Assembly: GCF_037076425.1 (NCBI RefSeq)
Contig: NZ_AP028127.1
Location: 340,001-404,000, forward strand
DNA from: Turicibacter faecis
GTDB taxonomy: Bacteria > Bacillota_I > Bacilli_A > MOL361 > Turicibacteraceae
Reading direction: 5' to 3'
Length of the DNA: 64,000 nucleotides
In this document: positions 17,391 to 54,086 of the stretch, piece by piece
How positions within the stretch are numbered: the stretch's first letter is position 1
Layout: the number at the start of each line of letters is the position of its first letter
The notes under the pieces: model-generated
What the model was told of the DNA's origin: nothing
The model's input: the letters and a program-made list of their open reading frames with translations, nothing else
The model's database searches: none
Translations under genes and position numbers: made by a program

Positions 17391-17396
17391 AATTAA

Positions 17397-17436
17397 AAGA
17401 GACTATTTCGCTAAAGCAAAATAGTCTCTTCTTTAA
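17397..17436 (+). terminator. Terminator
   Basis: A perfect 12-bp stem AAGAGACTATTT / AAATAGTCTCTT (17397-17408 / 17419-17430). Confidence 0.9.
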
Positions 17437-17600
17437 GTTTTCTTAAATAGCATGAGTAGATGAGATAGGGGGCATGATTAAAGAAGTTTTTGTTCGAAAG
17501 GGAAAACAGAAGTTGATGCGTATTAACAAGGGTGGTTGGTGGCATTTTTTTGAAGGATGTGACAATAAAACATAATTTTAAAAAATAAAAGTCATATTAT

Positions 17601-17629
17601 TTGTGTTTTAGAAAAACGTACGATATAAT
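17601..17629 (+). promoter_or_regulatory. Promoter of the candidate small RNA
   Basis: TTGTGT (17601-17606), a 17-base spacer and TATAAT (17624-17629). No open reading frame follows before the terminator at 17760-17789. Confidence 0.6.
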
Positions 17630-17635
17630 AAATTT

Positions 17636-17789
17636 GTCTTAAAAAAAGACAAAAAATATTGCAATAAATTTCTTGCCAAGCTTTTTAACAGAAATTTATC
17701 CCCTCAAGAATATTTAATAATTATCCCCTCAAATAATTATTAAAACCTTAAAAGACAGGTCCAGTTACTTCTCGTAACTGGATTTTTTA
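17636..17789 (+). ncRNA. Candidate small RNA with two CCCCTCAA motifs
   Basis: A ~150-base noncoding unit bounded by a promoter and a strong terminator (stem TCCAGTTAC / GTAACTGGA, 17760-17768 / 17774-17782, then T6). The motif TTATCCCCTCAA occurs twice (17696-17707 and 17721-17732). The second copy sits in the 8-base loop of a perfect 11-bp hairpin (17714-17724 / 17733-17743). A stem ATAAATTTC / GAAATTTAT (17664-17672 / 17691-17699) precedes the first copy, and a small hairpin lies at the 5' end (17633-17653). C-rich UCCCC loops are the targeting element of several Firmicute small RNAs that pair with ribosome binding sites. It could instead be a leader of the alpha-galactosidase gene, but the terminator argues against that. 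Confidence 0.6.
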
Positions 17790-17875
17790 TTTTGATCGGA
17801 TAGATGCTGTTTCTTCGTAAAGGGAGATTAAATAACATACATTTAACCATATATCTATAACATCTAAACATAGAA

Positions 17876-17899
17876 AGAAAACGTTTTTAAGTTTATAAT
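17876..17899 (+). promoter_or_regulatory. Alpha-galactosidase promoter region with a cre-like site
   Basis: AGAAAACGTTTTTA (17876-17889) resembles a CcpA catabolite-response element, with two departures from consensus, and overlaps the region where a -35 should be. TATAAT follows at 17894-17899. No good -35 box is present, which suits a promoter that needs an AraC-type activator; the likely activator gene is downstream at 20223-21104. Confidence 0.45.
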
Positions 17900-17940
17900 G
17901 AAAACATATTCAAAAGCAATAAGAGCGAGGAGAGAAGAGA

Positions 17941-20172
17941 ATGCCAATCTTATTTAACGATCAAACAAAAGAGTTTCACTTATATAATCAAGCAATTAGC
18001 TATATTATGACTGTTTTACCGAATGGGCAATTGGGGCAATTATACTATGGAAAGAAAATTCGTCATAATGCATCGTTTTCTCATTTGCTAGAACAACGTC
18101 CGCGTCCGTTATCAGCGTGTACATTTGAAGGAAATATGAGTTTTTCATTAGAACATATTCGTCAAGAATATCCATGTTATGGAACAGGTGATTTCAAATA
18201 TCCAGCCTATGAAATTTTACAACAAAATGGTAGTGATATTACTGAGTTCGAATACGTTTCACATCAAATTTATAAAGGGAAACCAGCTTTAATTGATAAG
18301 ATGCCATCAACATATGTTGAGTCGGATGAAGAAGCAACAACATTAGAAATTACATTAAAAGATGCGTTAATTCAAACAGAATTAGTTTTAACGTATACGA
18401 TTTATGAAGAGCGTCCGGTTATTACACGTCATGCGACATTTAAACATTTAGGACAAGAGGAAGTAACCTTAACAAATGCCATGAGTATGGCAGTTGATTT
18501 TCCAGATTACAACTATGAAATGGTTGAATTAACGGGAGCATGGTCAAGAGAGCGCTATGTAAAACATCGTAAATTAGAACATGGAATTCAGTCTGTGTAT
18601 AGTATGCGTGGAGCTAGTAGCTCAAATTACAATCCATTTTTAGCATTAAAACGTCCGCAAACGACGGAAAATAGTGGGGAAGTGTATGGATTTAGTTTAG
18701 TATATAGTGGAAACTTCTTAGCACAGGCAGAGGTTCATACCTATGGTACGACACGTGTGATGATGGGATTACATCCAAATCGTTTTAATTGGGTATTAAA
18801 ACAAGGTGACGTGTTCCAAACACCAGAAGTTGTTATGGTTTATAGCGAAGATGGATTAAATGGAATGAGTCAAACGTACCATGAATTATATCGTACACGC
18901 TTATGCCGTGGATATTGGAGAGATCGCGTACGCCCAATTTTAGTAAATAACTGGGAAGCAACGTATTTTGATTTTAATGAAGATAAAATTGTATCAATCG
19001 CTAAAGATGCTAAAGAATTAGGAATTGAATTATTTGTATTGGATGATGGATGGTTTGGTAACCGCGAAGATGATACTGTAGGTTTAGGAGATTGGTACGT
19101 TAAAAACTTCGATAAGTTGCCAAATGGAATCGCCGGACTTGCGAATCGTGTAACGGATCTTGGAATTAAGTTTGGGTTATGGTTTGAACCTGAAATGGTA
19201 AATAAAAACAGTGATTTGTACCGCGCACATCCTGACTGGATTTTAACAACACCAAATCGTGGGGCTTGTCATGGACGCCATCAATTTGTCTTAGACTTCT
19301 CACGTAAGGAAGTGGTTGATTACATTTATGAAGCAATGGCAAAAGTATTATCAGAAGCGCCTATCTCTTACGTAAAATGGGATATGAATCGAAATATTAC
19401 AGAATGTTTCTCAGCAGTTGCATCAGCTAAAGATCAAGGAAAAGTATTCCATAAATATATTTTAGGGGTTTACGACTTATATGATCGTTTAACGACTGAA
19501 TTCCCAGAAATTTTATTTGAATCATGTGCGAGTGGGGGATCACGTTTTGACCCAGGAATGTTATATTACGCACCACAAACATGGACAAGTGATGATACAG
19601 ACGCTGTGGAACGTTTAAAAATCCAATATGGAACATCAATGGTTTATCCGATTAGTAGTATGGGTTCACATGTCTCAGCTATTCCTAATCATCAGTTATA
19701 TCGTAATGCGCCGCTATCAACACGTGCCAATGTCGCGTATTTTGGAACATTTGGTTATGAGCTTGACTTAAATAAATTAACAGAGGCAGAAAAGAATGAA
19801 GTGAAGCAGCAAGTTGCCTTCTTTAAAGAATACCGTGAGACCATTTTTAATGGAACATTCTATCGCTTATTAAGCCCATTTGAGGGGAATGAAACATGCT
19901 GGATGATTGTTTCACAAGATCAAAAAACGGCACTTGTTGGATATTATCGTCCGTTAAATGAGGTCAATGTAGGATTCCGCCGCGTTAAATTACAGGGGTT
20001 AAATCCAGATTTAAAATATACGGTTTCAATTAATGAGACCACTAATTACGGAGATGAACTCATGAATGCTGGATTGATTACATCTGATGGTTCATGTGGA
20101 GAAAATAAAGCACCATACGATGGAACAAATGGTGATTATCAGTCACGTATTTATTTATTAAAAGCAGAATAA
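17941..20172 (+). CDS. Alpha-galactosidase, glycoside hydrolase family 36
   Basis: A 743-residue cytoplasmic enzyme (no signal peptide) that removes terminal alpha-1,6-galactose from raffinose, stachyose or melibiose. An N-terminal beta-sandwich is followed by the TIM barrel with DDGWFG (~367), the nucleophile motif KWDMNR (Asp ~480), ESCASGGSRFDPGM (~526) and the acid/base motif WTSDDTD (~549). Length and motif spacing match family 36 group I enzymes such as AgaA/RafA. Codon usage suggests high expression. It is a single gene convergent with an AraC regulator, with which it shares a terminator. No transporter for the sugar is adjacent. Confidence 0.96.
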   Translation: MPILFNDQTKEFHLYNQAISYIMTVLPNGQLGQLYYGKKIRHNASFSHLLEQRPRPLSACTFEGNMSFSLEHIRQEYPCYGTGDFKYPAYEILQQNGSDITEFEYVSHQIYKGKPALIDKMPSTYVESDEEATTLEITLKDALIQTELVLTYTIYEERPVITRHATFKHLGQEEVTLTNAMSMAVDFPDYNYEMVELTGAWSRERYVKHRKLEHGIQSVYSMRGASSSNYNPFLALKRPQTTENSGEVYGFSLVYSGNFLAQAEVHTYGTTRVMMGLHPNRFNWVLKQGDVFQTPEVVMVYSEDGLNGMSQTYHELYRTRLCRGYWRDRVRPILVNNWEATYFDFNEDKIVSIAKDAKELGIELFVLDDGWFGNREDDTVGLGDWYVKNFDKLPNGIAGLANRVTDLGIKFGLWFEPEMVNKNSDLYRAHPDWILTTPNRGACHGRHQFVLDFSRKEVVDYIYEAMAKVLSEAPISYVKWDMNRNITECFSAVASAKDQGKVFHKYILGVYDLYDRLTTEFPEILFESCASGGSRFDPGMLYYAPQTWTSDDTDAVERLKIQYGTSMVYPISSMGSHVSAIPNHQLYRNAPLSTRANVAYFGTFGYELDLNKLTEAEKNEVKQQVAFFKEYRETIFNGTFYRLLSPFEGNETCWMIVSQDQKTALVGYYRPLNEVNVGFRRVKLQGLNPDLKYTVSINETTNYGDELMNAGLITSDGSCGENKAPYDGTNGDYQSRIYLLKAE

Positions 20173-20201: not shown

Positions 20202-20240
20202 AAAAAGGGAACGACTAATGATTTAATCGTTCCCTTTTTC
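20202..20240. terminator. Bidirectional terminator
   Basis: A 13-bp stem AAAAAGGGAACGA / TCGTTCCCTTTTT (20202-20214 / 20227-20239) between the convergent alpha-galactosidase and regulator genes. Confidence 0.92.
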
Positions 20241-21104
20241 ATGTTGGTGGGGGTCGCTATCCCGTTTATAGTGGTTTTGAGTATTAGCCTTACGGTAATT
20301 TAAGGGACTTAACCCTGTTATTTTCTTAAAAGCTTTGGAAAAAGCCAGTGGGTCATTGTAGCCACACGAGTTAGCGATGGTATGGACGGCAAGTTCCGAA
20401 TTAATAAGAAGTTCCGATGCCTTTGTAATTCTAAATTTCATTAAAAATTGTTGCGGGGAAAGATGAAGTGTTTGTTGGAATAGGGTCGTTAAATAGGTAC
20501 GACTTAATGAAACGTAATTGGCAATATCGGTCACTAAAATAGGGTTTTGATAGTTTTTTTGAATATACTCGACTGCCTTGCTAATATAAAGATTATCTGT
20601 TTCAACATCTTCCTCATAGGGAAGTTCTGCCGATTTTGCTAACGTCGCAAAGAATAAAAAGAGAATACCTTGCAACGAGAGTTCATGATAGTGTCCCCAT
20701 GTATCGTGCTCAAGCATTTGCTCAAGGTACTGAGTCAGTTGTTCAGATTCTTGGCATCCAAATGTATAGTCTGTTTCTCCCATTCCTCCATACTTTAAAT
20801 AAGTTTTTGCCTTACTCCCATTAAATCCAATCCATAAATACGTCCAAGGATCGGTTTCATCGGCTTGATAAAAGGTTAATTCTCCGGGGCGAATTAAAAA
20901 ACCTTGCCTTGCTTCAATCGTATATTTTCGATCGTTTACATAATAATATCCTTTTCCTTTAATCACATAATGAATCAGGTAGTTTGGTCGTACGGCTGGG
21001 CCGAAACTATAACCAGACGGACAATTCTGGCGCCCACAATATAGGAGGTGGAAATCTTCAAATGTTGGATCCTTGAATTTTAAAAATGAATACTGTTGCG
21101 TCAT
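20223..21104 (-). CDS. AraC family transcriptional regulator (MsmR/RafR-like)
   Basis: A 293-residue regulator: an N-terminal cupin-type sugar-binding domain (SYSFGPAVRPNYLIHYVIKGKGYYYVN...RPGELTFYQADETDPWTYLWIGFNG) and two C-terminal helix-turn-helices, the second in the family signature IANSCGYNDPLAFSKAFKKITGLSPLNYRK. This architecture is that of MsmR/RafR activators of alpha-galactoside genes, which respond to the sugar. The adjacent alpha-galactosidase is its probable target. It is similar along its length to the regulator at 29496-30326, so the two are paralogs. Confidence 0.92.
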   Translation of the reverse strand: MTQQYSFLKFKDPTFEDFHLLYCGRQNCPSGYSFGPAVRPNYLIHYVIKGKGYYYVNDRKYTIEARQGFLIRPGELTFYQADETDPWTYLWIGFNGSKAKTYLKYGGMGETDYTFGCQESEQLTQYLEQMLEHDTWGHYHELSLQGILFLFFATLAKSAELPYEEDVETDNLYISKAVEYIQKNYQNPILVTDIANYVSLSRTYLTTLFQQTLHLSPQQFLMKFRITKASELLINSELAVHTIANSCGYNDPLAFSKAFKKITGLSPLNYRKANTQNHYKRDSDPHQHEKGND

Positions 21105-27503: not shown

Positions 27504-27574
27504 AAAATCACCTCGTATAAAGAATATTCATCATCATGTTTTGTTAGTCATATGTTTAAAGAGGAGGGGATAAA

Positions 27575-28381
27575 ATGGAATTAATCGTAAAGAAGCTTGT
27601 ATCAGAATATATGAAATTAGATGAGGTAGAAGCAATGACGCTTGCAGGGTCTCGGGCGTCAGGGAGAAATGACAGCCAATCTGATATTGACTTGGATTTG
27701 TTTGTGACTAGAGCGATTCCGGTTGCGAAGAGACGGGAAATTGCATCAAAGTTTTCAGATTGTATGGAGATTGGAAATGAGTTTTTTGGGAGTTCGGACG
27801 AATTTATAATCCGTGATTCGTTAATCGCTGTCGATATTTGTTTTTTCGACCTAGAAGAGATTCGTCAAAACTTAGCTGAAGTGATGGAAGACTGTCAAGC
27901 TCGAACGGGATATACCACGTGTTTTGTTTACAATGTTTTAAATGCCGAAATACTTTATGATAGAAACCAGGAACTTGAACATTTAAGGAAAAAGTATCAG
28001 CATGTTTATCCAAAGACCCTCAAACAAGCGATTGTAGATAAGAATTATCCGATTTTAAGGGATGCCTTTTCTTCCTACTATCATCAAATTGAAAAGGCGA
28101 TTTCACGTTGTGACTTGAATAGTATCAATCATCGAGTGACAGCATTTTTAGCGAGCTATTACGATATTATCTTTGCGATAAATGGCGTTCTTCATCCAGG
28201 GGAGAAACGTCTCATATCAATTATAGAGTCAATATGTGTGGACTATCCACCTCATACAACCCAATATGTTCATACAATAATTAGAAGTATCGGTGTGGAT
28301 GACAACCTCCTTTTACAGACATTAAACTTATTAGTTGATGAATTAGAGATTCTGTTAAAGGGTAAAGGTTTTCTTTCGTAA
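27575..28381 (+). CDS. Nucleotidyltransferase-domain protein (DUF4037-like)
   Basis: A 268-residue protein. The N-terminal polymerase-beta-type nucleotidyltransferase fold has its catalytic motif LAGSRASGRNDSQSDIDLDLFV (GS...DxD), with a third acidic residue in VDICFFD. The helical C-terminal ~150 residues (HQIEKAISRCDLNSINHRVTAFLASYYDIIFAINGVLHPGEKRL) match the DUF4037 type. Relatives include drug-modifying and toxin-antitoxin nucleotidyltransferases, but no partner gene is adjacent, so the target is unknown. A good ribosome site (GAGGAGGGG) precedes it. Confidence 0.82.
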   Translation: MELIVKKLVSEYMKLDEVEAMTLAGSRASGRNDSQSDIDLDLFVTRAIPVAKRREIASKFSDCMEIGNEFFGSSDEFIIRDSLIAVDICFFDLEEIRQNLAEVMEDCQARTGYTTCFVYNVLNAEILYDRNQELEHLRKKYQHVYPKTLKQAIVDKNYPILRDAFSSYYHQIEKAISRCDLNSINHRVTAFLASYYDIIFAINGVLHPGEKRLISIIESICVDYPPHTTQYVHTIIRSIGVDDNLLLQTLNLLVDELEILLKGKGFLS

Positions 28382-45482: not shown

Positions 45483-46679
45483 ATGAGGGGATTAGTGCAT
45501 AAATATGGGGGAACCTCAGTGGCGACGCCAGAAAAAATAAAAAATGTAGCCAAACGAATTATCCGAGAAAAGGAGAAGGGTCTGGATATGGTCGTTGTTG
45601 TTTCAGCAATGGGAAAAACAACGGATCATTTAGTGGAACTGGCGGGTCAAATCAGTCAACACCCCGATGAAAGAGAGTTAGATTTATTACTTTCGACGGG
45701 TGAACAAGTCTCGATTGCTTTATTAACGATGGCGCTTCAGGAGGAAGGGTACGAGGCTATTTCTTTAACGGGATTTCAAGCGGGAATTAAAACGGTGGGC
45801 CCTCATACCAAAAATAAAATTATCGATATTGATATTGATAAAGTTAAGGATTATTTGGCAGAAGGAAAAATTGTCATTGTCGCGGGATTTCAAGGTATGA
45901 ACGAATTAGGGGAAATAACAACACTTGGCCGTGGAGGATCAGATACGACGGCAGTTGCACTTGCCGCAAAATTATCTTTTCCTTGTCATATTTATACGGA
46001 TGTTGAGGGGATTTATTCTGTCGATCCACGCTTGTATAAGCCGGCTAAGAAATTAGAAGTGATTAGTTATGAAGAAATGATGGAAATGGCGAGTCTTGGA
46101 GCAGGAGTCATGGAACCAAGGTCAATTTTAATCGGTCAAAAGTATAAAGTTCCTATTTATGTCGCTTCAAGCATGAACCAAGAGAAGGGAACGTATATTA
46201 AGGAGTATGATGGGACAATGGAAGAAAAAGTAGTAACAGGACTAAGTGTTTGTGATGATATTTTAATGGTAACGATTAGTCAGATTCCTGACGCAGCAGA
46301 AAACATGGCTTTAATTTTTGACAAGTTAGCCGCGCGTCATGTTAATGTGGACATGATTAGTCAGGCGGCCTCATTCGAGGGACTGCTGAGTGTATCCTTT
46401 ACGGCCAAAGTTGAGGATAGAGGGGCGGTTCAAGCGGTGATGGACGAGTTAGATCCGCAGTATCATGTGTGTATGGAGTCTGAAATTTCAAAGCTTTCAG
46501 TCGTCGGAATGGGAATGCGAAATCAAAGTGGAGTGAGTGGTCGCTTATTCCGAATTTTAAGTGATCATAAAATACCATTTAGACAAGTGACGACTTCGGA
46601 GATTAGTATTTCTTATGCGATTGATCGTTTAGATAAAGAACGAGCCGTGGCCATTTTATCACAGGAGTTGAACCTGTAA
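45483..46679 (+). CDS. dapG: Aspartokinase (DapG/LysC type)
   Basis: A 398-residue enzyme that phosphorylates aspartate, the first committed step to lysine, threonine, methionine and DAP. The catalytic domain has KYGGTSVA at the start, then TTLGRGGSDTTAVALA. Two C-terminal ACT domains follow and would bind the feedback inhibitor; MDELDP and SISYAID are in them. Location in the dap operon suggests DAP or lysine sensitivity (DapG- or LysC-like); which inhibitor cannot be read. Codes 12-13 bases from both neighbours. Confidence 0.93.
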   Translation: MRGLVHKYGGTSVATPEKIKNVAKRIIREKEKGLDMVVVVSAMGKTTDHLVELAGQISQHPDERELDLLLSTGEQVSIALLTMALQEEGYEAISLTGFQAGIKTVGPHTKNKIIDIDIDKVKDYLAEGKIVIVAGFQGMNELGEITTLGRGGSDTTAVALAAKLSFPCHIYTDVEGIYSVDPRLYKPAKKLEVISYEEMMEMASLGAGVMEPRSILIGQKYKVPIYVASSMNQEKGTYIKEYDGTMEEKVVTGLSVCDDILMVTISQIPDAAENMALIFDKLAARHVNVDMISQAASFEGLLSVSFTAKVEDRGAVQAVMDELDPQYHVCMESEISKLSVVGMGMRNQSGVSGRLFRILSDHKIPFRQVTTSEISISYAIDRLDKERAVAILSQELNL

Positions 46680-46692
46680 GGGGGGATGACAG

Positions 46693-47823
46693 ATGGATTT
46701 AAATGAAATAATGAAGTCTCATCGGAGGTATTTGCATCAAATTCCTGAACTAGGCTTTTGTGAGTTTAAGACATCAGCCTATCTTAAAGAACAATTACTT
46801 CAATTAGGATACGAGGTATATCCTACGGCAAAGACAGGACTCCTCGCCTATCGCCGAGGAGAGAGTGAAGCATGTATTGCTTTTCGGGCGGATATGGATG
46901 GTCTTAGTTTAACTGAAGAAACTCAGATGGAGCATCCTTCTATTCATGAGGGGCAAATGCACGGATGTGGTCATGATGGTCACATGTCCATTCTTTTAGG
47001 ATTTGCGACATATTTATCGACCATCAATGAACTAAAAAAGAGCGTTCTACTAATTTTTCAACCCGCGGAAGAGGGCCCTGGAGGTGCCGAGGTCGTTGTT
47101 TCCGAAGGGGTGTTCACGAAGTATCACGTTCAATACATTTTTGGCTTACATCTGTATCCAGAAATTGAAGAAGGAAAGTTCGGTCTTAGAAAAGGTGTGA
47201 TAACGGCTCAGACGGGTGAGGTTGATATTAAGGTGCAGGGCCGTGGAGGTCATGGGGCTTTACCACATTTATCAACGGATGCGTTAGTCATTGCTTCACA
47301 GTTATTAATGAGTTATCAGACGATTGTTAGTCGTAATTTAAACCCTATTTCTTGTGGTGTTTTAACGATTGGGACGATGCATGGTGGAGAACGGCGAAAT
47401 ATTATTGCAGAAGAAGTAGAGTTGACGGGAACGATTCGAGCATTTAGTGAAGAGGTTTATGAAACGATAAAGCGTCGAATGGTTGAGATTAATCAAGGTC
47501 TTGAGTCGATGTTTAAGGCCCGAATTACGACAACATTTAGAGATATGTACCCGTGTATCGTAAATGATGCTCATTTAGTGGAATTGATTAAGTCTTCTTC
47601 CCTCGCCTCATCGATGGTTGAAATGGACCCGATGATGATTGCGGAGGATTTCGCTTATTATCAGAAGGAAGTTCCGGGATTGTTTTTTATGCTAGGAACT
47701 CGAAATGAGGAACGGGGATTTACGTACCCTTTACATCATTCAAAATTTAATTTTAGTGATGAGGTTTTTATGCGGGGACTTAAACTTTATCAGGAAGTTG
47801 GAAATTTACTAAAAATTTATTAG
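46693..47823 (+). CDS. dapL: N-acetyldiaminopimelate deacetylase DapL
   Basis: A 376-residue M20-family metallohydrolase that removes the acetyl group from N-acetyl-LL-DAP. Metal-site blocks: FRADMDGL (first Asp), MHGCGHDGHM, PAEEGPGGAEV (Glu), FGLHLYPE and HHSKFNFSDEV. Neighbours asd, dapA, dapB and dapH identify it as the DAP pathway member rather than an amino-acid amidohydrolase. With DapH it marks the acetylated route. (Also named dapL in Bacillus; not the plant-type aminotransferase DapL.). Confidence 0.9.
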   Translation: MDLNEIMKSHRRYLHQIPELGFCEFKTSAYLKEQLLQLGYEVYPTAKTGLLAYRRGESEACIAFRADMDGLSLTEETQMEHPSIHEGQMHGCGHDGHMSILLGFATYLSTINELKKSVLLIFQPAEEGPGGAEVVVSEGVFTKYHVQYIFGLHLYPEIEEGKFGLRKGVITAQTGEVDIKVQGRGGHGALPHLSTDALVIASQLLMSYQTIVSRNLNPISCGVLTIGTMHGGERRNIIAEEVELTGTIRAFSEEVYETIKRRMVEINQGLESMFKARITTTFRDMYPCIVNDAHLVELIKSSSLASSMVEMDPMMIAEDFAYYQKEVPGLFFMLGTRNEERGFTYPLHHSKFNFSDEVFMRGLKLYQEVGNLLKIY

Positions 47824-47835
47824 GGAGTGTGTGAA

Positions 47836-48816
47836 ATGAGTGGGGTTAATGTTGCGATTGTTGGGGCGACTGGATTAGTCGGGCAAACTTTTTTAAAGGT
47901 GTTGGAAGAAAGAAACTTTCCTATTCATCACCTGTACTGTTTTGCATCAAGCCGTTCGGCAGGAAAGGAAATCACATTTAAGGGTGAGACTTATGTTGTT
48001 GAAGAATTAACGGAGCAATCATTCGATTACCCTATTGACATTGCCTTATTTTCAGCAGGAGGAGAAGTGAGTAAAAAATTTGCACCTATCGCTGTATCTA
48101 AAGGGGTACGTGTCGTTGATAATTCAAGTGCATGGCGAATGGATCCAGAGGTTGCGTTAATTGTTCCAGAGGTGAATGGGGACACGTTAACACCAGACGA
48201 TTATTTAATCGCTAATCCAAATTGTTCAACCATTCAGTCGGTTGTTCCATTACGTGTCTTACACGAGGCGTATCAAATTAAACGAATTGTTTATTCAACT
48301 TATCAGGCAGTGTCTGGATCAGGGATTAAAGGCTTAAGAGATTTAGAAGATGGAACACAAAAATTTTATCCACACCCAATTACAGGAAACTGTCTACCTC
48401 ACATTGATATTTTCTTTGATAATGGATATACGAAAGAAGAAATTAAGATGATTGAGGAAACGAAAAAAATCCTAAACGACCAAGAAATTAAAATTACAGC
48501 GACAACGGCACGCGTGCCTGTAAAATACGGACACTGCGTTTCTATGAATTTAGAATTTGAAAAAGAGTTTGAGTTAGACGACGTTTATCGCTTATTAGAA
48601 CAAGTGCCTAATCTTGTCGTACACGGCAAAGAAAATCACTTAGATTATCCCCTTCCAATTGATGTAGCGGGGCATGATGAAGTTCACGTTGGAAGAATTC
48701 GTCGTGACTTTAGTGTAGATTCTGGTTTAAATTTATGGGTCGTTGCCGATAACATAAGAAAAGGTGCTGCAACTAATGCGGTTCAAATTGCTGAATCTTT
48801 ACTGACATTTATGTAG
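47836..48816 (+). CDS. asd: Aspartate-semialdehyde dehydrogenase
   Basis: A 326-residue NADPH enzyme reducing aspartyl phosphate to the semialdehyde. Rossmann motif [14 protein letters not shown] at the start; the active-site Cys is in [22 protein letters not shown]-type and PHIDIF segments follow, with the catalytic His in [18 protein letters not shown] at 47836 is preferred over the in-frame GTG at 47827, because AGGGA is nine bases upstream. Fourth gene of the operon. Confidence 0.95.
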
Positions 48817-48829
48817 GAGGGATGTCCTA

Positions 48830-49705
48830 ATGTTTAGAGGATCAGGTGTGGCACTCGTGACACCATTTAAAACGGATGGTAGTGTAGACTACGATCGGTT
48901 ACAGGAGTTATTAGAGTGGCATATTCAAAATCAAACAGATGCCATTATTATTTGTGGAACGACGGGCGAGTCTGCAACGATGAGTGATGAAGAACGTCGT
49001 TCGGTTATTAAATTTACGGTGGATGTTGTTGGCAAGCGTATAAAGGTCATTGCCGGAACAGGGAGTAATAATGCAGCGTATGCTCTTGAGTTAAGTCAAT
49101 ATTGTGAATCGATCGGTGTGGATGGATTACTCGTCGTGACCCCTTATTATAATAAGGCGACAGATCTTGGACTGAGACGTTATTATGAAATGATTGCGAA
49201 TGCGGTAAATATACCGATTATTTTGTATAATGTTCCTGGTCGAACAGGAGTTAACTTAAAGCCATGTGTCGTTAAAGAATTAGCGTTAATTCCTAATATT
49301 ATAGGAATTAAAGAAGCGAGTGGAGATATCGCACAGGTAGCCGAAATTGCTCGCTTATGTGGAAATGATTTTCTCATCTACAGTGGAAATGATGATATGA
49401 TTGTTCCTATTCTTTCACTGGGTGGACAAGGAGTTATTTCGGTATTAGCGAATATCTTACCTCAACAAACGCATGATTTAGTTGAAGCATACTTAACGGG
49501 TGATGTTTTAAAATCACGCCAGTTACAGTTAGAGATGAATGGATTGGTTCATGCGCTCTTTATTGAGGTCAATCCAATTCCAGTTAAGACAGCTATGAAT
49601 TTAATGGGAATGAATGTGGGTGGACTTCGTCTCCCACTAACAGAAATGACAGCAGAACATGTAGAAAAATTAAAAGAAGAAATGTTGAAGCAACAATTAT
49701 TGTAA
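48830..49705 (+). CDS. dapA: 4-hydroxy-tetrahydrodipicolinate synthase
   Basis: A 291-residue TIM-barrel aldolase condensing pyruvate with aspartate semialdehyde. [13 protein letters not shown] binds pyruvate, YNVPGRTG carries the catalytic Tyr region, and the Schiff-base lysine is in [10 protein letters not shown] (~161). Arg of the active site follows in the family place. Ribosome site AGGAGGG. Spacing to dapB is 13 bases. Confidence 0.97.
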
Positions 49706-49718
49706 GAGGTGAATGTAT

Positions 49719-50480
49719 ATGTTAAAAGTTGGTTTAAGTGGTTGTAATGGAACGATGGGGCGTATTTTAAATGAGTTATTGCAAGAGGATCAACACACGA
49801 CCGTTGTGTTTGGAATCGATTTAGATCCGACGCGATTTGAAAATGAATATCCTGTTTTTAAAACTCCGAAGGAAGTGACAGTGCCATGTGATGTGGTGAT
49901 TGATTTTTCAAAACCAGAGAATATTGATGCATTGATTGATTATTGTCTATTAAACCGTGTACCGGCCGTCATTGCAACAACAGGTCTTACGGAGGAACAG
50001 GAGTCAAAGATTGTAGAGGCGTCTCATCAAATTCCAATTTTCCGTTCAGGGAATACGTCTTTAGGTGTTAATGTATTGCTTGATTTGGTAAAGACGGCAA
50101 CACGCTTATTAAATGACCAATTTGATATTGAGGTTATTGAGAAACATCATAATAAAAAGGTGGATGCTCCGAGTGGAACGGCGTTTATGATTGCAAGTTC
50201 AATTAATGAGGAGCTTCATAATTCAATGGAATACCATTATGGTCGCCAAGGAAACCATACGAAACGAGAAGAAAAAGAGATTGGAATTCATTCGGTTCGT
50301 GGTGGAACCATTCCAGGAGAGCATACGGTTATTTTTGCAGGTCCAGATGAAATGATTGAGATTAAGCATACAGCATTATCGAAAAAGATTTTTGCACAGC
50401 AGGCGATTAGGGCAGCTGAGTTTGTGACACAACGTGAGCCTAAGTTATATAATATGCATGATGTGATGAATGCAAATTAG
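49719..50480 (+). CDS. dapB: 4-hydroxy-tetrahydrodipicolinate reductase
   Basis: A 253-residue NAD(P)H enzyme making tetrahydrodipicolinate. N-terminal VGLSGCNGTMGRIL is the nucleotide loop (SGCNG in place of GAxG). The signatures FRSGNTSLGVNVLLD, EVIEKHHNKKVDAPSGTA and the terminal SVRGGTIPGEHTV are all DapB motifs. The ATG at 49719 is better placed than the one at 49713 relative to AAGAGGTGA. Sixth gene of the operon. Confidence 0.96.
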   Translation: MLKVGLSGCNGTMGRILNELLQEDQHTTVVFGIDLDPTRFENEYPVFKTPKEVTVPCDVVIDFSKPENIDALIDYCLLNRVPAVIATTGLTEEQESKIVEASHQIPIFRSGNTSLGVNVLLDLVKTATRLLNDQFDIEVIEKHHNKKVDAPSGTAFMIASSINEELHNSMEYHYGRQGNHTKREEKEIGIHSVRGGTIPGEHTVIFAGPDEMIEIKHTALSKKIFAQQAIRAAEFVTQREPKLYNMHDVMNAN

Positions 50481-50493
50481 GGGAGGTTTTTGA

Positions 50494-51207
50494 ATGAGTC
50501 AGGTGGGATTGTTAGATCCATATGAAATTGCACGTTATATTAAGGAAGCGAAAAAAAGTACGCCCGTTAAAGTGTATGTAAAAGGTGATTTAAAGGGTGT
50601 GGAGTTTCCCAATTGCCGCGTCTTTGGAGAAGGAGAATTTCTAGTTATTTTTGGTGAATATGAGGATGTTCAACCTGTTCTTATTCAAAATAAGGATCGT
50701 ATCGCGTACTATGAAATGGAAAACGATCGTCGTAATTCGGCGGTTCCAATGCTCAACTTAAAAGAAGTTAAAGCGCGTATTGAACCGGGTGCTATTATTC
50801 GCGATAGGGTCAGTATTGGAGATAACGCCGTTATTATGATGGGAGCTGTTTTGAATATCGGGGCAGAGATTGGTGAAAATACGATGATTGATATGAATGC
50901 GGTTATTGGGGCACGCGGAACGATTGGAAAAAATGTTCATGTTGGAGCAGGTTCCGTGATTGCTGGTGTATTGGAACCACCTAGTAAAACTCCCGTTATT
51001 GTTGAAGATGGTGTAATGATTGGGGCCAATGCCGTTATTTTAGAAGGTGTTCGTGTAGGAGAAGGTGCGGTTGTTGCTGCAGGAGCTGTTGTGACAGAAG
51101 ATGTGGCGCCTTATACGGTTGTAGCTGGAATGCCAGCGCGTGTTATTAAACAAAAAGACGAGCAAACGACGGCTAAAACTCAATTGGTAGAAGATTTACG
51201 TCAATAA
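50494..51207 (+). CDS. dapH: Tetrahydrodipicolinate N-acetyltransferase (DapH)
   Basis: A 237-residue acyltransferase that acetylates tetrahydrodipicolinate using acetyl-CoA. The C-terminal half is a left-handed beta helix with hexapeptide repeats ([57 protein letters not shown]). An N-terminal helical domain matches the DapH family; succinyl-type DapD is longer. Presence of dapL in the same operon agrees with the acetyl route. Last gene of the continuous cluster; an IS3 element separates it from dapF. Confidence 0.93.
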
Positions 51208-51236
51208 TTAAAAAAAGTAGTAAAGTAAAAATCTGG

Positions 51237-51325
51237 TATAGTACCTTCGGGGTAGACAAAAAAATAAAAGCGCGCCTATCTCATATGGTAGAATAGCTTT
51301 AAGGTCTACTAAGGAGGTACTTTTT
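51237..51325 (+). mobile_element. Relic of an IS end
   Basis: GTACCTTCGGGGTAGACAAA at 51241 resembles the left end of the intact element at 51381 (TGTACCCTAGAGAGTAGACAAA). An imperfect ~17-bp stem (51241-51257 / 51304-51320) then T5 gives the same hairpin-and-T-run layout seen at the intact left end. It also acts as a possible terminator for the dap operon. Confidence 0.55.
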
Positions 51326-51470
51326 CTTATACAATTCAAAAAGATTAATCGCCATTTTAACTATTCTAAGCTCTATAAAATGTACCCTAGAGAGTAGACA
51401 AATAAAAAAAGTCTACCTTCTAGGGCCTTTTTGTTATAATATTAACTATTAGATTTTAGGAGGATTTTAA

Positions 51471-51881
51471 ATGAGCAAGAAGTTATTTACACCACAAGAG
51501 ATTGAACAACTCAAACAAAACGAATATGTTAAGTCAGTATCTGAAAAAGGGATTACTTATACGAAAGAATTTAAGGAGAACTTTATTATGATGAGCGAGA
51601 AAGGAAAGTTTCCGCGAGAGATATTCGAATACTATGGATTTAATGTTACGGTGCTTGGCATGCAGCGTGTGAATTCTGCAGCTAAACGTTGGAAACAAGC
51701 CTTTAAAACCCAGGGCCCATTAGGATTGGATGATAGTCGTACTAAGAATTCTGGAAGGTCCCTAAAACGAGAGTTAACGCTAGAAGAACAATTATTACGC
51801 ACGCAGGCTAAATTAGAAGTTTTAAAGATTGAGAACGAATTATTAAAAAAGTTGAGACTCATGAGAAAAATGCTCGAATAG
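51471..51881 (+). CDS. IS3-family transposase OrfA
   Basis: A 136-residue protein with the N-terminal helix-turn-helix that binds the IS ends (ITYTKEFKENFIMMSEKGKFPREIFEYYGF) and a C-terminal leucine-zipper-like coil (LEEQLLRTQAKLEVLKIENELLKKL). The promoter TATAAT (51436-51441 region) and AGGAGG site are inside the element. A slippery A AAA AAG near its end lets part of the ribosomes continue into OrfB. Confidence 0.93.
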   Translation: MSKKLFTPQEIEQLKQNEYVKSVSEKGITYTKEFKENFIMMSEKGKFPREIFEYYGFNVTVLGMQRVNSAAKRWKQAFKTQGPLGLDDSRTKNSGRSLKRELTLEEQLLRTQAKLEVLKIENELLKKLRLMRKMLE

Positions 51882-51885
51882 TCTC
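51845..51885 (+). promoter_or_regulatory. Programmed -1 frameshift site
   Basis: A AAA AAG (51845-51851) lies in the zero frame of orfA; shifting back one base enters the orfB frame, which is open from here. A stem GAGACT / AGTCTC (51854-51859 / 51880-51885) two bases downstream would stimulate slippage. This would make the OrfAB fusion transposase. Confidence 0.85.
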
Positions 51886-51904
51886 TAAAGAAGTAAAGTT
51901 TCAA

Positions 51905-52801
51905 ATGATTCATCAAGTAGTGAATCAGACATCAACTAAATTTAAATCTTTAATTTCTCATTTATGCGATAGTCTTGGTGTTTCAAGATCAGGTTATTAT
52001 CGTTATTTTTCGTTATGTGCTGAAGAAGCTCGTTTAAAGCGATTAAAGGAGGAACAACATCGTTTAGAAGTTATTCAAAAGGCCATTTGTTTTAAGGGAC
52101 GAAAAAACAAGGGAATTCGCCAAGTAGCGATGGTTCTTAAAGGGGAATTCAACATTATCTTTAACCTAAAATCTATTCATCGAATCATGAAAAAGTATGG
52201 ACTATTGAGTCAAGTTCGTCGAAGCAATCCCTATCGTAAACTCGCTAAAGCGACACAAGCACATCGTGTCTGTCCAAATCTTGTTAATCGTCAATTTAGG
52301 CCATTAGAACCTTATAAAGTTCTATTAACCGATATCACTTATTTAAAATATGGAAAGGGTCAGACTGCCTATCTCTCGACCATCTTAGATAGTGCAACAA
52401 ATGAAGTTTTAGCTTTTCAATTAAGTGAGCATTTAAAGATAGATTTTGTTCTCCAAACACTGAACCAACTTCAAGAAAATCCGACTGTCCAATTAACGAA
52501 GGAAACGATTATTCACTCCGATCAGGGCGTGCATTATACGAGTCCGCAATTTTCGAATCAATTAAAGGAATTAGGAATTCAACAATCAATGTCTAGGAAG
52601 GGGAATTGTTGGGATAACGCTCCACAAGAATCATTTTTTGGGCATCTAAAAGATGAAGCAGATATAACCAATCAACTGACATTTGATGATTTACTCATTG
52701 AAATTGAAGAATATATAGATTATCATAACAACTTTAGATATCAATGGAATTTAAAAAAGCTGACTCCTGTAGGATACAGAAATCAGCTTCAAGTTGCTTA
52801 G
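51905..52801 (+). CDS. IS3-family transposase OrfB (DDE catalytic part)
   Basis: A 298-residue DDE integrase of the rve/IS3 fold. HTH_21-like N-terminal part (GVSRSGYYRYFS), then the first catalytic Asp in LTDITYLKYGKG, the second in IIHSDQGVHYTS and the Glu in NCWDNAPQESFFGHLKDE. The frame is open upstream to the slippery site at 51845, so the working product is the OrfAB fusion; the ATG at 51905 is only the first ATG. All catalytic residues are intact, so the element may be active. Confidence 0.93.
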   Translation: MIHQVVNQTSTKFKSLISHLCDSLGVSRSGYYRYFSLCAEEARLKRLKEEQHRLEVIQKAICFKGRKNKGIRQVAMVLKGEFNIIFNLKSIHRIMKKYGLLSQVRRSNPYRKLAKATQAHRVCPNLVNRQFRPLEPYKVLLTDITYLKYGKGQTAYLSTILDSATNEVLAFQLSEHLKIDFVLQTLNQLQENPTVQLTKETIIHSDQGVHYTSPQFSNQLKELGIQQSMSRKGNCWDNAPQESFFGHLKDEADITNQLTFDDLLIEIEEYIDYHNNFRYQWNLKKLTPVGYRNQLQVA

Positions 52802-52842
52802 GTTTTTTTCTTTGTCCTTGACAAAGGGTACAGATTACTAAG

Positions 52843-52980
52843 GAGTTAAAACTTCGTGCCGTTAAACTTTATTTGAAGGGGGAGTCTTGTTCCCCTGTTT
52901 GTGAACCATTGAAATCTAAGATCCCAAACGAATTTTATCTTCTTTTCACTATTTTACCCACTAAGGAACGGGGAGGAGTC
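52843..52980 (+). pseudogene. Relic of a transposase OrfA (HTH part)
   Basis: One frame reads ELKLRAVKLYLKGESCSPVC, then EPLKSK, very close to the IS3-type OrfA opening (KELKLKAVKLYLEG...). It follows directly after the right end of the intact IS and decays into noncoding sequence after about 45 codons. It may be the continuation of the older IS whose left end is at 51237. The remaining stretch up to 53216 shows no gene. Confidence 0.55.
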
Positions 52981-53216
52981 ATATTCTTCTGATCCTTGTC
53001 ACTTGTGCGTAGGCCATTAAGTAATTAGTTCCATTTTAGAAGGTTTAAACCTTTTTTAGTCATGTCCATCACAAAAATATTTTTAGATAACCGTCTAGTG
53101 ATAGGAAAGTTTTAATTATTTAACTATTATTTTTCGTTATATTGTTGCAAGAAGGGGAATATGATAAAAAAAGAAGTTGTAAAGTATTCAGTTGAGAGTT
53201 GATGGGAGGGGATCCT

Positions 53217-54086
53217 TTGTTAAAATTTTGTAAGTATCAAGGAACGGGAAATGATTTTATTATTGTGAAACAGTCTGAGATAGATGGCGTTACGTATTCT
53301 TCGCTCGCTAAAAATGTGTGCGATCGACGATTCGGAATTGGCGCGGATGGGATGATAGTTGTTGCCCCCTCAACGGTTGCTGACATTCGAATGATTTTTT
53401 ACAATGCTGATGGCAGTATAGCTACGATGTGTGGAAATGGAATTCGATGTTTTGCCAAATATGTGTATGATCATGGCCTGGTGGGGCAAACCTCTTTTTC
53501 GGTGGAGACATTGGCGGGCGTGCTGACGGTTGAACTCGTGTCTATGACGAATGAAGAAAGCAACGTTAGAGTCAATATGGGATGTCCATGTTATGTTCAT
53601 CCGGCAGTTCCTAAGGTGACATCGGATGGAAAATTCATTAATCAAACCATTGAATTAGAGGGAGAACCTTACACGATAAGTAGCCTCTTTATTGGAACGA
53701 TTCATACGGTTATGTTCGTTTCAGAAATTGATGAGAAGATGGCGACCCACTTAGGGGAGCTGATTGAAAATCATGCCATGTATCCACAAAAAACAAATGT
53801 GAACTTTTGTCGGGTGATTGATCCTCATCACATTGAGGTTTTAACATGGGAAAAAGGAGTGGGTCTTACGCTCGCCTGCGGAACTGGATCAGCAGCCTGT
53901 GCTGTGTTAAGCAGGCAACTGTACCAGTGTGATCAATCCATCACCGTTTCTATCAAAGGAGGAACTCTTCTGATGGAACAAGAGGAAGATGGGGTATATA
54001 TGACAGGGCCGGCTCGTTTGATATGTACGGGGCAATATGTTTATGGGGAGTCGCCACAAGGGGAGCAAGACCTCGACAGCTTCTAA
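53217..54086 (+). CDS. dapF: Diaminopimelate epimerase
   Basis: A 289-residue cofactor-free racemase-type enzyme converting LL- to meso-DAP, which feeds both LysA and peptidoglycan. Both catalytic cysteines are in place: MCGNGIRCFAKY and LACGTGSAACAV; the start reads LKFCKYQGTGNDF. TTG at 53217 is chosen since GGAGGGG is six bases upstream; the in-frame ATG at 53202 lies before that site. It is the only DAP gene after the IS and has lost direct linkage with the operon. Confidence 0.95.
   Translation: MLKFCKYQGTGNDFIIVKQSEIDGVTYSSLAKNVCDRRFGIGADGMIVVAPSTVADIRMIFYNADGSIATMCGNGIRCFAKYVYDHGLVGQTSFSVETLAGVLTVELVSMTNEESNVRVNMGCPCYVHPAVPKVTSDGKFINQTIELEGEPYTISSLFIGTIHTVMFVSEIDEKMATHLGELIENHAMYPQKTNVNFCRVIDPHHIEVLTWEKGVGLTLACGTGSAACAVLSRQLYQCDQSITVSIKGGTLLMEQEEDGVYMTGPARLICTGQYVYGESPQGEQDLDSF

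Follow-up and report, generated by a model that had tools for sequence, protein, structure and literature searches.

The window analysed here, a 64,000-nucleotide stretch of the Turicibacter faecis genome, corresponds to positions 340001-404000 of a 2.43-Mb single contig and contains a predicted small RNA (sRNA) gene of about 155 nt on the + strand (17634-17789), which was delimited from its sequence, its fold, its homologues and the exposure of its motifs. A putative sRNA promoter that can be read directly, with the -35 element TTGTGT (17601-17606), a 17-bp spacer and the -10 element TATAAT (17624-17629), precedes it on the same strand (17601-17629). Right after the predicted start, the RNA is predicted to fold into a 5' hairpin with the arms UUGUCUU and AAGACAA (17634-17652), followed by a loose AU-rich stem (17664-17699) and by a partly paired CUUGCCAAG block (17672-17680) that is invariant in the alignment of four species. 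C-rich motif 1, UUAUCCCCUCAA (17696-17707), ends in a single-stranded CCCCUCAA (17700-17707), and the same CCCCUCAA, as motif 2, forms the 8-nt loop (17725-17732) of an A-U hairpin (17713-17744). An intrinsic terminator identified by the terminator scan, with 12 pairs, a 5-nt loop and the U tail TTTATTTTGA, closes the gene (17757-17785). The next gene on the + strand, aga (17941-20172), is separated from 17789 by 151 bases and encodes a GH36 alpha-galactosidase (Pfam Melibiase, E 2.3e-169). Both the terminator and the alpha-galactosidase gene directly downstream had been named in a preliminary description of this locus made from the sequence alone, and both are confirmed here.

The repetition of the C-rich motif, noted in the same description, is also borne out, as TTATCCCCTCAA has two exact copies in the window (17696-17707 and 17721-17732); when up to two mismatches are allowed, 15 sites are found against 8.6 expected. 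The 11-mer TATCCCCTCAA occurs four times in the 2.43-Mb genome, two of them at the sRNA, and the reversed control pattern occurs three times. The RNA 17634-17789 folds at -32.1 kcal/mol compared with a mean of -14.7 for shuffled sequences (z -5.86), and none of the 200 shuffles equalled it. The hairpin that presents motif 2 is perfect and its 8-nt loop is filled by the motif, as had been described, but RNAfold gives it 12 pairs rather than 11. The promoter needs a stronger correction: its -10 element is a perfect TATAAT, but the -35 element matches the consensus at only 3 of 6 positions, and the signal is thus weaker than had been claimed. The terminator scan of the window returned five terminator-like sites against a shuffle mean of 0.6.

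We compared five Turicibacter genomes, G000 (the source of the window) and G001 to G004; four of them carry the element upstream of aga, G001 being the genome without it. It was found by blastn in G000, G002 (84%) and G004 (78%), each time before aga, and the identity of the RNA to that of the window is 83.7% in G002 and 74.8% in G004. The spacer before the RNA is only 45.2% identical in G002, and the spacer between the terminator and the conserved block before aga is 32.3% (G002) and 35.6% (G004) identical. At the promoter spacing, TTTGTnT and ATAAT are invariant in the alignment of the four species; the sRNA promoter is therefore weak but conserved. The alignment also keeps AATTTATCCCC of motif 1 invariant, and the stem GUCU(U/C)/(A/G)AGAC appears in all four folds, with one change from U-A to C-G in G004. 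The second hairpin is near-identical in G002 and G004, where the G004 loop reads CCCCC with no U preceding, and it is replaced in G003. In the terminator stems of G002 and G004, 97% of the cells are paired, with four pairs changed on one side and one on both. Across the RNAs of the four species, the folding z ranges from -5.5 to -7.4, and all eight CCCC tracts (two per species) are predicted to be unpaired, with a mean probability of 0.92-1.00. The CUUGCCAAG block has an unpaired probability of 0.43-0.85; it is invariant in the four homologues, yet it is not accounted for by a model based on C-rich seeds. The four species have no reading frame in common: a single invariant TTG opens 14, 14, 24 and 7 codons in G000, G002, G004 and G003, respectively, its products are alike only in G000 and G002, and a ribosome site is not evident before it. 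The presence in four of the five genomes, each time with a terminator, together with the lack of a conserved frame and of any Rfam match at threshold, supports the proposal of a free-standing sRNA gene with repeated exposed motifs.

The element of G003 is the most diverged of the four, as is its aga protein among the orthologues (76%). When the orthologous place before aga is read directly, the 5' hairpin, CCTTGCCAAG and AATTTATCCCC are followed by a hairpin and, in the same place as in the others, a terminator that are both unlike those of the window; just the 5' half of the RNA can be recognised. A profile made from the other three RNAs and searched with nhmmer gives G003 25.7 bits (E 4.4e-8 over two loci). 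On the basis of its place before aga, the order of its blocks and this profile, the G003 element is likely a homologue of the window RNA. Its second hairpin is without a C tract, and its terminator loop is UCCCCUCUUAAU, which contains UCCCCUC. A random 12-nt loop with the same base composition would contain CCCCTC with a chance of about 1e-4 and any CCCC with one of about 0.002; among the 12-mers of the window itself, the fractions are 0.0005 and 0.008. The reappearance of the C tract in the G003 terminator loop is, although judged post hoc, the best sign that selection may be keeping two exposed C-rich seeds.

Beyond these four genomes, none of the searches recovered a convincing relative. 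No Rfam family reached its gathering score in the window, the seven weak matches at E up to 10 were all far below the cut-offs, and none of the matches of the relatives' RNAs at E up to 1 reached threshold, in keeping with the earlier remark that no family could be named. At the RsaE cut-off, none of eight Turicibacteraceae genomes passed, compared with 1 of 14 control genomes, and the locus was not among the weak matches listed. A blastn search with 17580-17800 (E up to 0.01) gave matches in 30 of 60 genomes; outside G000, G002 and G004 these were pieces of 19-81 bases only, and at 27 such loci no match had two CCCC tracts near it on the + strand. Scanning of the named genomes for the paired-motif pattern returned 14 stretches, one of which is from Turicibacter (apparently G002); the remaining 13, which include two from Clostridia, have unlike spacers and were taken as chance, as was a single stretch in viral contigs. 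A covariance search in other genomes had been suggested earlier: structure model R1, built without G003, recovered its three training genomes among 395 genomes of the class but missed G003, and its four further matches were weak (E 9.5e-4 to 0.038), none carrying paired C-rich motifs. Model R2 is based on sequence only and includes G003, whose score there is by construction; its best matches elsewhere (E 0.011 in G002, 0.054 in G001 and 0.08 in other genera of the family) were not convincing. In G001, a single-contig genome, no such RNA is seen between the upstream gene and aga, and blastn and the models gave no convincing match elsewhere. Among the genomes searched, this probable sRNA gene was thus seen in Turicibacter alone.

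Ribosome sites complementary to the seeds were counted before ATG throughout each genome, with the reversed pattern as the control and G001 as the RNA-less comparison. TGAGGGG(4-10)ATG occurred 26 times in G000 (control 17), 24 in G004 (10), 30 in G003 (21), 28 in G002 (9) and 35 in G001 (15); the corresponding counts for GGGGATA(0-10)ATG were 103 (30), 71 (17), 90 (24), 46 (25) and 57 (9), and those for TTGAGGGGATAA with at most one mismatch, the sRNA copies included, were 24 (17), 18 (19), 22 (20), 25 (9) and 18 (14). The search for GAGGGG-type ribosome sites proposed earlier thus yields many sites, but equally many in the genome without the RNA, and such abundance is what would be expected of G-rich Shine-Dalgarno sequences. 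Among the 143 TGAGGGG places, 40 were followed individually (26 in G000 and 14 in the others), 21 of which had an open frame of at least 30 codons; individual GGGGATA places were covered for G004 and part of G000.

Several named candidates were considered as targets and rejected. For aga, eight motif tests were made, and mononucleotide shuffles were as good in 29 to 185 of 300; pairing of the RNA with the aga ribosome site is thus not clearly better than that of shuffled sequences. The AraC-type regulator gene downstream of aga has TGAGGGGATTGT before its start in G004, CGTAAGGAGCTTGT in G000 and CACGGGGAGTTTGT in G002, and a gene that we take from its N-terminus to be ftsX-like has TGAGGGGATATT in G000 and G002, TGAAAGGTTACT in G004 and TGAGAGGTTATT in G001. 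The TTGAGGGGATTA common to G004 and G003 lies inside a coding motif. Exact TTGAGGGGATAA outside the sRNA occurs once each in G000 and G002, antisense to the same gene, with another copy inside a frame in G002; in G003 it lies upstream of a presumably GH13-like gene, and the motif 1 of G003 itself differs from it. A nucleotidyltransferase-like gene at 27575, with AGGGGATAAA in G000, AGGGGATA in G002, AGGGATAGG in G004 and none in G003, was rejected as well. In G000, its ribosome site GAGGAGGGGATAAAATG (27561-27577) and the sRNA could form a pairing of 10 bases, which is less strong in G002 and G004 and does not occur in G003; the best match in G001 is only 30% identical. A duplex scan of 59 window genes allowed long inner loops and was made without a specificity control, and it is not used as evidence. 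In that uncontrolled scan, high ranks went to the G-rich ribosome sites of aspartate kinase and several genes following it (45483-53217); these genes could be a cluster of targets or only carry strong Shine-Dalgarno sequences.

The surroundings of the sRNA gene have features of their own. Upstream, a gene of 201 aa has no Pfam match, and between it and the sRNA lies a strong inverted repeat of 17 pairs (17395-17432), for which the scan lists a terminator on the - strand; it is possibly a bidirectional terminator. A GACAATAAAACAT stretch just before the promoter (17550-17592) looks conserved and resembles the 3' end of a gene that we take from its sequence to be HAD-like. This gene is intact at that place in G004 (L003, 718-1509) and lies before aga in G001 (L054, 448-1245). 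As GACAATAAAACAT is the end of the HAD-like frame in G004, the stretch in G000 and G002 is probably a decayed remnant of that gene rather than a regulator site. Downstream of the sRNA, a conserved promoter- and operator-like block together with the aga leader (17837-17940, + strand), recognized by conservation and the promoter scan, is separate from the sRNA; its identity is 92% in G002 and 61% in G004. Here the scan lists TAGAAA-17-TATAAT at 17871-17899, with 10 of 12 positions matching. Within it, ATTTAACCATATATCTATAACATCTAAACAT (17841-17880) is identical in G000, G002 and G004 and similar in G001 and G003, and this region is likely the operator and promoter of aga; the adjoining AAAACGTTTT is presumably cre-like. 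The AraC-type regulator gene (20223-21104, - strand) converges on aga in G000, G002 and G004; the 3.2 kb inspected downstream of aga did not show it in G001 or G003.

On this evidence, we consider it probable that 17634-17789 encodes an sRNA that is transcribed on its own and acts in trans through redundant C-rich seeds directed at the G-rich Shine-Dalgarno sequences of several mRNAs; for this predicted RNA, we infer transcription, action in trans, Shine-Dalgarno pairing and repression. Its own promoter and intrinsic terminator would yield an RNA of about 155 nt, which the 5' hairpin would probably protect. The two UCCCCUC seeds, one exposed in the single-stranded linker and the other in the hairpin loop, would pair with Shine-Dalgarno sequences of the GAGGGG/AGGGGA type, and translation of these mRNAs would be blocked.

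A number of observations weigh against this proposal. The consensus promoter scan omits the sRNA promoter, with 11 sites listed against 9.3 expected by chance, and the RNA is no better conserved than the aga coding sequence, which is 86.3% identical in G002 and 81.9% in G004. Covariation gives no support and is uninformative: only 2 of 42 pairs changed on both sides, 206 of 500 shuffles reached as many, 10 of the 11 pairs of the second hairpin in that alignment are invariant, and MAFFT misplaced the 5' hairpin of G000. With regard to G003, the nhmmer score was corrected heavily for composition (16.6 bits), the RNA identity (47.9% overall and 52.6% in the 5' half) is hardly above that of drifted spacer, model R1 scores the element at noise (18.4 bits, E 0.041), and the RNA with three extra 5' bases prefers another pairing over the 5' hairpin. 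Furthermore, for none of the three patterns do the counts distinguish the RNA-less G001 such that the RNA would be implicated, and no candidate target among the 40 of 143 places followed and the named candidates keeps its pairing across species. As only these 40 places were followed, the screen was weak, and an absence of targets does not follow from it. The earlier suggestion that the motifs bind ribosome-binding sites thus remains plausible by analogy with RoxS/RsaE and LhrC, but no followed target supports it by conserved pairing.

Because aga adjoins the RNA on the same strand in each of the four species with the element, irrespective of the upstream gene, the RNA might instead be a cis-acting leader or attenuator of aga, in which transcription from 17601 would stop at 17785 unless a signal allowed read-through. 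In folds of the RNA truncated before the 3' arm of the terminator, the 5' arm can indeed pair weakly upstream, with four pairs in G000, three in G002 and at least five in G004. However, these pairings vary from one species to the next and G003 has none, so that the truncated folds show no shared antiterminator, and no riboswitch or leader family was matched at threshold. Moreover, aga has the separate promoter-like block that is so well kept in G002, G001, which has no such sRNA, carries a related block before aga, and the spacer from the terminator to this block is only 32-36% identical. Given the weak and differing pairings, the unconserved spacer and the promoter-like block of aga itself, an attenuator role is less likely, and we regard it as improbable.

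An sRNA whose C-rich motifs bind and titrate a protein, instead of pairing with mRNAs, would also suit short motifs that recur in loops and unpaired segments and would leave room for the otherwise unexplained CUUGCCAAG block. The C tract is retained although the surroundings of the motif vary from copy to copy and among species, a pattern that agrees at least equally well with pairing to G-rich RNA; to our knowledge, no such RNA-binding protein has been described for Turicibacter, and we give this explanation little weight. The weak promoter call, the uninformative covariation and the lack of the element in the single-contig G001 genome would all be compatible with there being no functional RNA at all, the locus being a chance array of hairpins and a terminator that possibly only ends transcription from upstream. 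This is very unlikely, as conservation is well above that of the neighbouring spacers in G002 and G004, the folding z values are strongly negative in every species, the C tracts are kept in G003 despite its exchanged 3' half, and a separate inverted repeat (17395-17432) belongs to the upstream gene.

The proposed trans-acting sRNA resembles several C-rich sRNAs in design. In the parts of the published accounts drawn on here, RoxS of Bacillus subtilis has C-rich regions for Shine-Dalgarno sequences and a 10-nt duplication, CCCCUUUGUU (PMC4409812), RsaE binds the AGGGGA ribosome site of Staphylococcus epidermidis lrgA mRNA (PMC6435200), and LhrC of Listeria monocytogenes, present in five copies, binds Shine-Dalgarno sequences through redundant UCCC motifs in a loop, a linker and the terminator loop; the UCCC motif is presented there as a means of reaching Shine-Dalgarno sequences shared with FsrA and other sRNAs of low-GC Gram-positive bacteria (PMC4132741). 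Like RoxS/RsaE (RF01820), the window RNA comes from a Firmicute and has several unpaired C-rich regions, with a 12-nt duplication of UUAUCCCCUCAA in place of the 10-nt CCCCUUUGUU of RoxS; the flanks of its motifs differ, and it has no match to that covariance model at E up to 10. RsaE/RoxS is further marked by control through ResDE and by redox and central-carbon targets; among the candidates followed here, none proved to be a conserved target. The arrangement recalls that of LhrC, with loop plus linker in G000, G002 and G004 and linker plus terminator loop in G003, but there are two sites per RNA rather than three, and one copy was found per genome compared with the five described for LhrC. 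LhrC, which has an Rfam model, is not among the seven Rfam matches at E up to 10. FsrA, which has an iron regulon, shares the UCCC motif and is likewise not among the Rfam matches of the window. With a shared design and no Rfam match at threshold, the RNA would by inference work like RoxS/RsaE or LhrC while standing outside their families.

Turicibacter is a common gut genus, and a search of the literature on its small or noncoding RNAs and RNA-seq returned no sRNA paper among the matches listed. What is new here is probably a genus-level sRNA, and what is known is the type, a Firmicute sRNA whose C-rich motifs target Shine-Dalgarno sequences. More speculatively, and with considerable doubt, the RNA might serve Turicibacter as a general riboregulator of the C-rich type and, in this lineage, take the place of RsaE/RoxS, for which no match passed the cut-off in the eight family genomes; its second seed would then have moved from the hairpin to the terminator loop of G003, or in the reverse direction, and selection would have acted on the number and exposure of the seeds and not on the scaffold. 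If it is expressed, this RNA would give Turicibacter a testable sRNA and may provide a compact case of convergent design, in which C-rich seeds for binding to Shine-Dalgarno sequences persist through an exchange of the surrounding scaffold.
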